Below are positions 12,401-15,436 of a DNA stretch of 64,000 bases, in pieces. The DNA is taken from NCBI GenBank assembly GCA_016786465.1, contig JAEUWC010000017.1:62001-126000 (forward strand). Reading direction: 5' to 3'. Made by a program: the position numbers and the translations under genes. How positions within the stretch are numbered: position 1 is the stretch's first letter; every line of letters begins with the position of its first letter. The notes beneath the pieces are model-generated. The model was not told the origin of the DNA. It did no database searches and saw nothing but the letters and a program-made list of their open reading frames with translations. This DNA comes from Bdellovibrionales bacterium. Lineage in GTDB: Bacteria > Bdellovibrionota > UBA1018.

Positions 12401-13580
12401 GTACCAGCTGGTCTACGGCGCAAAGCTGATGAAGAAAGACGGCGAAATCGTCGAAAAAGGCACTGTCATGGCCGAGTGGGATCCATATTCCACTCCGATC
12501 ATCACGGAAGTCTCGGGTGTCATTCAGTTCGAAGACATCGAAGAAGGCGTGACGATGCAAGAGCAGTTCGACAGCGTCACGGGTCTTTCGCACAAGGTCA
12601 TCATCGAATCCAAGGCAACGGACAAGCGTCCGAAGATCTTGATCACCGATGGCAAGGGCAACGTTCTGAAGATCGAAGGATCTTCAAATCGCGTCGCTCG
12701 CTACATGCTGCCAGTCGGCGCCAACCTGGTTATTTCGGATGGCGAAGAGATCAAAGCGGGTGATTCGATTGCGAAGATCCACCGCGAAACGACGAAGACG
12801 AAAGACATCACCGGGGGTCTTCCTCGCGTTGCCGAGCTTTTCGAAGCTCGTAAACCGAAGGATTCATCGGTCATTTCTGAAATCGACGGAATGGTTTCGT
12901 TCGGTAAAGACACGAAGGGTAAGCGCAAGGTCTTGGTCGCTCCTGAAAGCGGCGAGCCTCGTGAATATCTGATCGGCAAAGGCCGCCACTTGGCGGTCAA
13001 CGAAGGCGACTATGTGAAGGCTGGCGAACCGTTGATGGACGGACCGGTCAATCCGCACGACATTCTTCGCGTTATGGGCGAAAAAGCCTTGGCGAAGTAC
13101 TTGGTCGACGAAGTGCAAGAAGTCTATCGTCTGCAAGGCGTTAAGATCAACGACAAGCACATCGAAGTCATCGTTCGTCAGATGCTGCGCAAAGTGAAGA
13201 TCAAGGACGTTGGCGACAGCGCCTTCTTGATCGGCGAGCAAGTCGACAAAGCGATCTACGAAGCCGAGAACCAAAAAGTTCTTCAGTCCGGCGGCGCAGC
13301 TGCTACGGCCGAAGGCTTGCTGTTGGGTATCACCAAGGCATCGTTGACGACCGAAAGCTTCATTTCGGCAGCTTCGTTCCAAGAAACCACCAAGGTCTTG
13401 ACCGAAGCTTCGATCAGCGGACGCGTCGACTTCCTACGCGGCTTGAAAGAAAACGTCATCATGGGACGTTTGATTCCTGCCGGAACGGGTCTTGCGAAGT
13501 ATAAGAAACTTCGCGCGATTATCGAAGAAGGCGACTACAGCAGCGTCGGAAACGAAACTCAAGAAGTCGCGTCTTTGTAA
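9444..13580 (+). CDS. rpoC: DNA-directed RNA polymerase subunit beta'
   Basis: RpoC carries the catalytic magnesium site of RNA polymerase. The 1378-residue protein has the N-terminal zinc ribbon (CNCGKYKR...CEKCG, about residues 70-90) and the invariant NADFDGDQM starting at residue 458 with three metal-binding aspartates. It also has the bridge helix/trigger loop region ([19 protein letters not shown]) and the second zinc site ([13 protein letters not shown]). A GAGGAAGAATC sequence precedes ATG 9444. It is the last gene of the block and ends before a strong terminator. Confidence 0.98.
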
Positions 13581-13590
13581 AAAGAATACA

Positions 13591-13628
13591 AAAAGGGTCT
13601 GATCCGGTTCGGGTCAGGCCCTTTTTCT
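13591..13628 (+). terminator. rpoBC terminator
   Basis: AAAAGGG and CTGACC-type stem bases pair with GGGTCAG and CCCTTTTT around a GTT loop, and the 3' arm ends in T-rich sequence. The hairpin lies about ten bases after the rpoC stop and is a typical intrinsic terminator. Confidence 0.85.
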
Positions 13629-13644
13629 TTTGAGAAATTTTAGT

Positions 13645-13719
13645 GCGGGATTAGCTCAGCGGTAGAGCAGGGCTTTTACACAGCCAAGGTCGGGAGTTCA
13701 ATCCTCTCATCCCGCACCA
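13645..13719 (+). tRNA. tRNA-Val(TAC)
   Basis: The acceptor GCGGGAT pairs with ATCCCGC, followed by discriminator A and an encoded CCA. The D-arm is GCTC...GAGC, and the anticodon loop TTTACAC contains TAC. The T-arm has GGGAGTTCAATCCTCTC. The outermost anticodon-stem pair (G27-A43) is mismatched, which is slightly unusual. A 16-base copy of the 3' end occurs 200 bases downstream (see findings). Confidence 0.93.
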
Positions 13720-13729
13720 TTTTCGAAAC

Positions 13730-13770
13730 AAAAAGGCCTGAGCTCTTCGAGCCCCGGCCTTTTTGTTTTT
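13730..13770 (+). terminator. terminator downstream of tRNA-Val
   Basis: AAAAAGGCC pairs with GGCCTTTTT, enclosing GCTC(TTC)GAGC, and GTTTTT follows. The structure is symmetric enough to stop transcription from both directions, so it can serve tRNA-Val and also block read-through from aqpS on the other strand. Confidence 0.8.
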
Positions 13771-13867
13771 GAAAGCGGCGCGAAAGAGAGTCTTGAAAGT
13801 GCTCCGAGTTCGTTTGCGAGGTCGCTTCGCTCTTCTCGCTAACGCCTCTCGCACGCCGCGGGATCGT

Positions 13868-13889
13868 CAAAACGCTCATCCGCGTTTTG
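13868..13889. repeat. CAAAACGC/GCGTTTTG inverted repeat after aqpS
   Basis: CAAAACGC(TCATCC)GCGTTTTG is a perfect eight-base-pair hairpin 18 bases beyond the aqpS stop codon. It could end the ars transcript on the minus strand, although no T-run follows the stem. It lies inside the 200-base interval bounded by the two copies of the tRNA-Val 3' end. Confidence 0.4.
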
Positions 13890-13901
13890 CCGCCCTCGCA
13901 C

Positions 13902-13917
13902 TCCTCTCATCCCGCAC
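13902..13917 (+). repeat. duplicated tRNA-Val 3' end (att-like)
   Basis: TCCTCTCATCCCGCAC at this position is identical to 13702-13717 inside tRNA-Val, exactly 200 bases apart. The copy overlaps the stop codon and last codons of aqpS on the minus strand. Duplication of a tRNA 3' end is the hallmark of site-specific integration, but no integrase gene is visible nearby, so this is an att-like scar at most. Confidence 0.55.
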
Positions 13918-14575
13918 GATCTTTTTTTAATCCACGAAGCAGAAGAAAACCAAGCCCAGCACCTACGACTTGGGCCAAGACAAAAGCAGGAACACCTGCC
14001 CAATGGATTCCGGAAAAAGTGTCGGTCAAACTTCGCGCAAGGGTTACCGCCGGATTTGCAAATGACGTCGAAGACGTCGCCCAGTAGGCTGCGACAATAT
14101 AGCAAGCAACGGCAGCGGGCGTGGTATCAGGCTTTTTCTTTCCGGTTAACCCGATCACTAGAATCAGCCCCAGCGTGGCCAAGACTTCCGAAACCGCCAA
14201 GCGAAGTTCCGCCCGATGGTGATTTGAAAGTTGAAAGACTGCCTGCCCAAAAATAATATGGGTCAATAGCACCCCAGAAATCGCACCTAGAACCTGCGCA
14301 GCAACATAAGATAGCCATTCTTGGGTCGTTAATTTTTTGGAAATCCAATCCACCAGGCTGACGACCGGATTGAAGTGGGCGCCCGACACGCCTTCGAAAG
14401 CCTGAATCAGGGCATAAAGCCCAGCACCTGTTGCCAGTGAATTCGCCAAAAGCGCAAGCGCCGCATTCCCCTGGGCCAGGGTTTCACCCATGATCCCCGA
14501 ACCCACAACGGTCACCAAAAGACCGGCAGTTCCAAGGAATTCGGACAACAGACGCCGATTCAGGTCTGGCTTCAT
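13907..14575 (-). CDS. aqpS: aquaporin-family channel of the arsenic operon
   Basis: MIP-family channels move water, glycerol or uncharged metalloids. The 222-residue protein has six predicted membrane segments and both pore motifs: HFNPVVS near residue 65, where NPV replaces the first NPA, and FANPAVTLAR near residue 168. In Sinorhizobium meliloti an aquaglyceroporin (AqpS) replaces ArsB in the ars operon and lets arsenite made by ArsC flow out. The same arrangement is seen here, with the gene one base after arsC. Its last codons and stop lie inside the tRNA-Val repeat copy. A general glycerol or water channel is the alternative, but the operon favours arsenite. Confidence 0.85.
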   Translation of the reverse strand: MKPDLNRRLLSEFLGTAGLLVTVVGSGIMGETLAQGNAALALLANSLATGAGLYALIQAFEGVSGAHFNPVVSLVDWISKKLTTQEWLSYVAAQVLGAISGVLLTHIIFGQAVFQLSNHHRAELRLAVSEVLATLGLILVIGLTGKKKPDTTPAAVACYIVAAYWATSSTSFANPAVTLARSLTDTFSGIHWAGVPAFVLAQVVGAGLGFLLLRGLKKDRAG

Positions 14576-14576
14576 T

Positions 14577-14999
14577 CTAGGCCCTTTCGTTCAACTGGGT
14601 TTTGAATTCCTGAAGCTTCTTTCGAATCGAATCTCGCGTTGATCGAAAACGGTTCAAAAATTCTTCGGGTGAAAGGGGTTCCTTTGAAGCAGGATCGGGA
14701 AGGGGCCAGTGCAGTTTCTTTGCCTTGGAAATGATCACCGGACAAACTTCTTCCGCACAAAGTGTGATCACGTAATCGATCTTCGAAACGAATTCGGGAT
14801 CTAAATCATCCACCGACTTCGAATAATGATGCGAAATATCCAGACCCACTTCCTTCATCGACTGAACCGCGTAGGGATTCAGTTGGCCGGGCTTTGATCC
14901 GGCGCTTTGAATTTCAGCGTCGGCAAATTCGGCCCGAGCCAAGCCTTCTGCAAGCTGACTACGGGCCGAATTTGCCACACACATAAATAGAATCTTCAT
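14577..14999 (-). CDS. arsC: arsenate reductase, low-molecular-weight phosphatase type
   Basis: ArsC reduces arsenate to arsenite in the cytoplasm. The 140-residue product begins [15 protein letters not shown], with the CX5R phosphatase loop (Cys7 to Arg13). It has the redox pair [10 protein letters not shown] around residues 80-85 that typifies thioredoxin-coupled enzymes, and the Asp of LPDPA near residue 99. I chose ATG 14999, which overlaps the arsI stop as ATGA; an ATG three codons upstream is possible. It lies between arsI and aqpS, so arsenate would be converted to the substrate of the channel. Confidence 0.92.
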
Positions 15000-15436
15000 C
15001 AGCAGCAACCTGTCTGGGAACCGTCGTCAGTTGGGCAGCATTCGGAAGCTTCCGCACCTTTTTCTTTGAAGACTTCTACATCCGCCATCGTTCTATATGC
15101 TTCCCAAGGCACTCCGGCAGGATCTTCGACCCAGGCCTTGTCCGACTTGGCGTAGCAACAAGTTGTCTCGCCTTCTTCGGATACTCCTAAATCGGCATTC
15201 TTCAGTCTTTCGGTTAATTCTTCAAGTTCCTTGGGTTCATCCACTTGAATTCCCAGATGATCCACACCGGTCGTACCGGTTAGGGTCGAAACCGCGAAGT
15301 TGATGCGGGGATCTTCCAACATCCACTTTGCATAATCCGACTTTAACTTGGATGGCTTTTGGCCAAACAAGGTTGAATAGAACTGAACTGACTTTTCGAT
15401 GTCCTTCACGCCCACATGAATATGCAGTCTTTTCAT
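14999..15436 (-). CDS. arsI: ArsI/CadI-type glyoxalase-fold protein (probable C-As lyase)
   Basis: ArsI is a non-haem iron dioxygenase that breaks the carbon-arsenic bond of trivalent organoarsenicals. The 145-residue protein has a VOC fold with candidate iron ligands His5, His60 and Glu112. It has the vicinal pair Cys93-Cys94 that binds methylarsenite in characterised ArsI. The C-terminus is cysteine-rich (ECCPTDD... ending GCC), which may also bind metalloid. ATG 15436 has the SD GGAAG and begins one base after the arsR stop; a longer frame upstream overlaps arsR and is rejected. CadI-like proteins of unknown function are the alternative. Confidence 0.8.

Follow-up and report, generated by a model that had tools for sequence, protein, structure and literature searches.

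A duplicated tRNA-Val 3' end in a Bdellovibrionales genome probably brackets a small non-coding element of a family found behind tRNA genes

To understand why the 3' end of a tRNA gene should occur twice within a few hundred bases, the second time inside the end of a protein-coding gene, we examined tRNA-Val(TAC) and its surroundings in a 64-kb stretch of a Bdellovibrionales genome (hereafter the window). The tRNA gene (13645-13719, plus strand; ARAGORN; Rfam tRNA, 62.9 bits) lies directly 3' of rpoC, and its final part, TCCTCTCATCCCGCAC, which runs from T-loop position 59 to the acceptor 3' strand (13702-13717, plus strand), recurs as a second, partial copy of the tRNA end at 13902-13917 (plus strand). 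As a preliminary description of the locus had reported, both 16-base copies are exact, their spacing is exactly 200 bases, and the second takes in the end of aqpS (13907-14575, minus strand; a MIP channel, Pfam MIP). The part of aqpS inside it comprises two codons and the stop, TGA. Ungapped extension of the two copies yields 25 bases at 88% identity, and the whole 64-kb window holds no third site for TCCTCTCATCCCGCAC within three mismatches. By a rough estimate for one tRNA tail, the chance of a 16-base tail repeat within 600 bases is about 1.5e-6.

The copies bracket only about 200 bases, in which neither cargo nor integrase was found and no gene is recognised. Directly behind the tRNA stands a terminator-like trailer hairpin (13720-13773), with no strand assigned; the consensus scan places a terminator-like site here on the minus strand only. 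It is followed by a putative, degenerate antisense copy of the T-arm and acceptor arm (13778-13797, plus strand), at the position expected from the family described below, and by a core (13815-13902, plus strand) that matches our covariance model R2 at 61.3 bits (G000:C22:75815-75902), a match that is not independent since the window sequence is one of the seven used to build R2. A variable hairpin, AAAACGC...GCGTTTT, occupies 13869-13888 (plus strand) of this core. The antisense arm of the window is weak and individually not significant: its score of 18 is reached by 74 of 2000 shuffles and by 7 of the 36 non-Val tRNAs of the genome. A longer, 50-base arm (score 48) was rejected because it consists mostly of the trailer hairpin, without which the score falls to 18. 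Folded as RNA, positions 13720-13930 give a z-score of -4.45, owed in part to the trailer hairpin. When other tRNA tails were swapped in, 15 of 40 gave an equally stable fold, so that the window's own tail brings no gain. A search of plasmids found no similar DNA, and a match at G035:C18 (L042) falls in apparent coding sequence.

Looking for the 200-base unit elsewhere in the genome gave a divided answer: its sequence is unique, while four other tRNA genes show the same arrangement. Behind five of the 39 tRNA genes detected, namely Val(CAC), Arg(CCG), Arg(TCT), His(GTG) and Val(TAC) itself, the gene's own 3' end is repeated over 16-23 exact bases at a distance of 168-210 bases; at the remaining 34 the longest downstream match is at most 10 bases, as it is in the upstream control. 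Ser(GGA) and Glu have inverted copies of 14-15 bases in place of sense copies. The former is also one of the hosts of a further arrangement, type D, read by eye as a long, near-perfect palindrome of tRNA trailer around a core (L080 1571-1800, L209, L251, L243, L205), its other hosts being Pro(TGG), Leu(CAG), Leu(TAA) and Gln(CTG) of G002, where the core reads CACGG..CCTCGC..GCAAG.

At the loci of this genome a common order can be read, from tRNA through trailer, antisense T-arm and core to sense tRNA end, with the trailer hairpin between tRNA and antisense arm and a conserved core of roughly 75-100 bases. Three unrelated cores, A (that of the window), B and C, use this one layout. To follow them through the phylum, we used two covariance models: R1, made from five core C elements, has 52 matches in 15 of 144 genomes, and R2, made from seven core A and B elements, has 41 matches in 14 of 144. 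An intact tRNA lies within 700 bases of 36 of the 52 R1 matches, in all 36 cases upstream and on the same strand, and none is nearby in the other 16. For R2, whose tRNA context covers the 30 of 41 matches that have a locus (the 11 without one being left out), 21 of 30 face a tRNA 3' end and 9 have no intact tRNA nearby. The preliminary description had also suggested that the repeat might belong to a small element derived from a tRNA and about 200 bases long; this is borne out, and the family is widespread. Family B is not family A reversed, since separate A-only and B-only profiles miss each other's elements. A pattern for the A core has four matches in genome contigs, three of them in MAG contigs that appear to be those of G025 and G024, already covered; the fourth, in Caballeronia sordidicola, has no tRNA in 8 kb and was counted as chance.

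The arms of these elements match the tRNA behind which they stand. Among 56 distinct tRNA-element pairs (duplicates and pairs more than 300 bases apart being dropped), a sense copy of at least 11 bases of the own tRNA is present in 46, compared with 4 of 2576 when elements are paired with tRNAs of other isotypes. For antisense copies of at least 11 bases the figures are 22 of 56 and 15 of 2576, and for antisense sequence extending over acceptor strand and trailer they are 30 of 56 and 40 of 2576. Host isotypes include Arg, Gly, Leu, Met, Ser, Gln, His, Val, Tyr, Trp, Cys, Asp and Glu. The junction is fixed as well: the sense copy starts at T-loop C56 in most pairs of family C (23 of 32) and family B (7 of 8); in family A, 6 of 9 pairs have it starting four bases after C56 (+4). 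Its right end is looser, and where the tRNA genes of a genome do not encode CCA it lies near the gene end. The elements keep a constant orientation to the tRNA in family C (35/35) and family B (11/11) and nearly so in family A (9/10), where a single core (L164) faces its tRNA in reverse. The window element, with an A core in A orientation behind a tRNA whose sense copy it carries, belongs to family A by these features. Tandem starts of elements are seen only outside the window (e.g. G040 Arg(TCT)), which has one unit. Elements also stand between the tRNA genes of clusters in G082 and G001; in the Gly-Tyr-Thr-Trp cluster of G082:C115 (L132), separate host-matched elements belong to Gly, Tyr and Trp. 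Three family C elements of the window's genome (L122 on C2, L123 on C16, L124 on C18) are orphans with no intact tRNA near, and the arms of those on C2 and C16 match Ser(CGA) and Ser(TGA) with 13-19 sense and 15 antisense bases. Decayed tRNAs in front of the orphans were considered and rejected, the upstream alignment scores lying within those of shuffles and not significantly tRNA-like.

Core C shows strong covariation. In 46 distinct sequences, 95.6% of the cells of 35 pairs are paired, compared with 35-41% in slid controls, and 33 of the 35 pairs have changes on both sides; the score is reached by none of 500 shuffles. The mixed A and B alignment is weaker than that of core C and exceeds its controls on most measures; both alignments were fitted to the structures of their own models, and the pairing counts are biased towards those structures. 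When a foreign tRNA tail was swapped in, the predicted fold became weaker in 40 of 47 cases, and the own tail ranked within the best 5% in 22 of 47. Family A is in general weak in this test.

Occupation of tRNA genes by the elements is patchy. The survey over all detected tRNA genes covered three genomes. In two genomes from a single genus, copies of at least 11 bases follow 8 of 41 and 9 of 33 tRNA genes, only Gln(CTG) being common to both. The flanks upstream of the tRNAs in this pair mostly align and those downstream mostly do not, being too diverged for a clean empty site to be demonstrated. At tRNA-Val(TAC), which is mostly rpoC-linked, a copy of at least 11 bases is present in 5 of 31 loci and absent from 26, among relatives all too distant for flank alignment. 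The element behind it also differs in type, belonging to family A in the window, G024 and G028 and to family B in G045. A different sequence is also found behind tRNA genes: GGCTCTTCCCC, an insertion-sequence-like end that we take to be ISL3-like, lies 39-403 bases downstream of 14 of the 41 tRNA genes of G002 (loci L181-L210, L241-L251), a genome of the same family. In G025 it follows one of 33 tRNA genes, and in the window's genome none of 39. The insertion sequence with GGCTCTTCCCC seems to favour tRNA trailers. In G002, 13 of 41 tRNAs lie less than 600 bases from a contig end on their 3' side and none of 41 on their 5' side.

How else might the duplication be read? That it is a fortuitous match can be suggested by the shortness of 16 bases alone; the expectation given above speaks against coincidence, and the excess of own over mismatched tRNA copies (46/56 against 4/2576) refutes it. 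The preliminary description itself had taken the repeat for the scar of a cassette that carried the ars operon into the tRNA end and created the coding end of aqpS at its junction, and the operon is accessory in this genome, as none of the 33 tRNA-Val loci of relatives that were searched has an ars match behind the tRNA. Synteny of rpoC and tRNA-Val(TAC) is conserved there, the rpoC C-terminus being matched in 32 of the 33 (some loci represent the same place twice). A second ars operon, moreover, adjoins a tRNA with an element in G039 (L179, G039:C26), convergent with tRNA-Pro(GGG). The end of this tRNA is repeated over 20 bases at about +198, and the tRNA also has an 11-base antisense and, by eye, a B-like core. 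Against the cassette stands the arrangement itself: the ars operon is not enclosed by the copies and lies beyond both, no further copy of the tRNA end follows it within the window, and the structure is shared by four further tRNAs of the genome. In G024 and G028 a family A element sits behind the same rpoC-linked tRNA-Val with no ars match in the loci searched. Homologues of aqpS occur in 7 of 58 genomes searched, this one included, and the eight loci in other genomes, which are arsR-arsI-arsC-aqpS or shorter sets at other places, never adjoin tRNA-Val. The operon is found at other sites in relatives, which is one part of the observation that the preliminary description had named as refuting its reading; the other part, a shared aqpS C-terminus, is not seen, the C-termini of the homologues being different. 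Since they differ and the loci lie elsewhere, the aqpS stop within the tRNA copy is explained as an overlap at a convergent gene end. A junction that brought in ars and made the end of aqpS is accordingly very improbable. The ars operon is, in our judgement, probably a neighbour unrelated to the element, and may itself have arrived separately at a variable tRNA-Val flank; given G039, the flanks behind such tRNAs may attract incoming genes.

The main rival to a settling element is a functional RNA of the tRNA trailer, made by read-through, whose antisense arm would pick either the T-arm of the tRNA or the downstream copy and so tune folding, processing or termination, as the rtT RNA of E. coli is supposed to do. 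The constant orientation, the strong covariation, the arms matched to the host tRNA, the elements inside the tRNA clusters of G082 and G001 and, with the reservation about the trailer hairpin, the predicted fold of 13720-13930 are all what such an RNA would show. A conserved regulator would not be expected to occupy different tRNAs in species of one genus, or to appear at one tRNA with different cores or none, and in the window a terminator-like hairpin stands before the element; we regard a trailer RNA as possible and on the unlikely side. An emptied genomic island has also to be weighed, in which the copies would be attL and attR of a tRNA-targeting integrase with its crossover in the T-loop. 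Such integrases leave identity blocks from the T-loop to the end of the tRNA, which is the span of the copies here, and the variable 3' flanks of the tRNAs would suit this origin. It would not account for cores that are conserved families with conserved structure at a short distance from the tRNA, for one core at many tRNAs with unrelated ends or for the antisense arm, and there is no integrase among the five neighbour proteins scanned. We consider an integrase relic unlikely.

The reading that we favour, and think probable, is that the duplicated tRNA end brackets one small non-coding element of a tRNA-trailing family. Its members would be non-autonomous, would settle behind tRNA genes and would use the end of the host tRNA for their arms, a mechanism that we infer. 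The same cores stand behind many tRNAs with arms matching each host, and the occupied tRNAs differ between species of one genus. An element would arrive at a tRNA 3' end with its junction at a fixed T-loop position, leaving the tRNA intact, and its arms would probably be written by fold-back (template-switch) copying around the hairpins, from X to rc(X) to X; copying of this kind would also keep the arms paired. As RNA or as single-stranded DNA, the arms could then close a helix like that of T-stem and acceptor, with the core replacing the T-loop. The elements, in which no cargo is recognised, are most likely selfish or structural. Among the genomes compared we found no transposition, no empty site and no partner enzyme. 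Genes for Y1 transposase and reverse transcriptase do not follow the distribution of the elements, and both were rejected as partners; PF01797 has no match in the element-bearing G024, G028, G040 and G045. More tentatively, and with less than even confidence, one may suppose an unnamed, phylum-wide class of propagating tRNA-tail elements that mimic the top half of the host tRNA (T-stem and acceptor with the 3' end, the core serving as T-loop) and move by fold-back copying that rewrites their arms; of this class only the E. coli rtT would be known to date.

Of the known systems, rtT (RttR, Rfam RF00391) at E. coli tyrT is the closest in design. It too lies directly behind a tRNA gene in fixed orientation, with an antisense T-stem/acceptor, GGGGAAGGAT, before the core and a copy of the tRNA 3' end closing the unit; in E. 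coli K-12, three 178-base units stand behind tyrV, each made up of antisense GGGGAAGGAT, core and sense ATCCTTCCCCCACCACCA. It differs in its three tandem units behind tRNA-Tyr, where the window has one; here, many tRNAs and several core families are involved. The Rfam RtT model matched none of 40 relatives (the E. coli control was positive), RF00391 is absent among the Rfam matches in window positions 13000-15000, and at gathering score nine element loci gave tRNAs only and no RtT. The elements are thus rtT-like in layout and not members of the RtT sequence family. To our knowledge, neither the origin nor the function of the E. coli rtT repeats is settled, and in the open-licence PMC literature we found no description of tRNA-tail elements outside E. 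coli. Islands integrated at tRNAs share the direct repeat of the tRNA 3' part, the intact tRNA and the T-loop junction with the elements, which instead have a structured, conserved core and an antisense arm and enclose neither an island nor an integrase between the copies. Bacterial palindromic repeats such as REP/BIME are likewise short, structured, non-autonomous and intergenic, whereas the present elements are tied to tRNA 3' ends, have host-derived arms and are not tracked by Y1 transposase genes. One study (PMC8794818) describes how template switching creates and maintains such reverse-complement stems; quasipalindrome mutation of this kind, as presented there, shares the reverse-complement copies and the keeping of paired stems. 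Alone, it leaves conserved core families at many tRNAs unexplained.

With one layout and several unrelated cores at tens of tRNA genes in one phylum, the origin and function of the rtT repeats become open to comparative tests, and the strong covariation marks an unannotated structured family that is ready for the study of transcripts and structure. If the elements do move, tRNA 3' ends would be home to a class of tiny mobile elements able to rewrite their arms, and it would be wrong to read every 'partial tRNA' repeat as the att site of an island.
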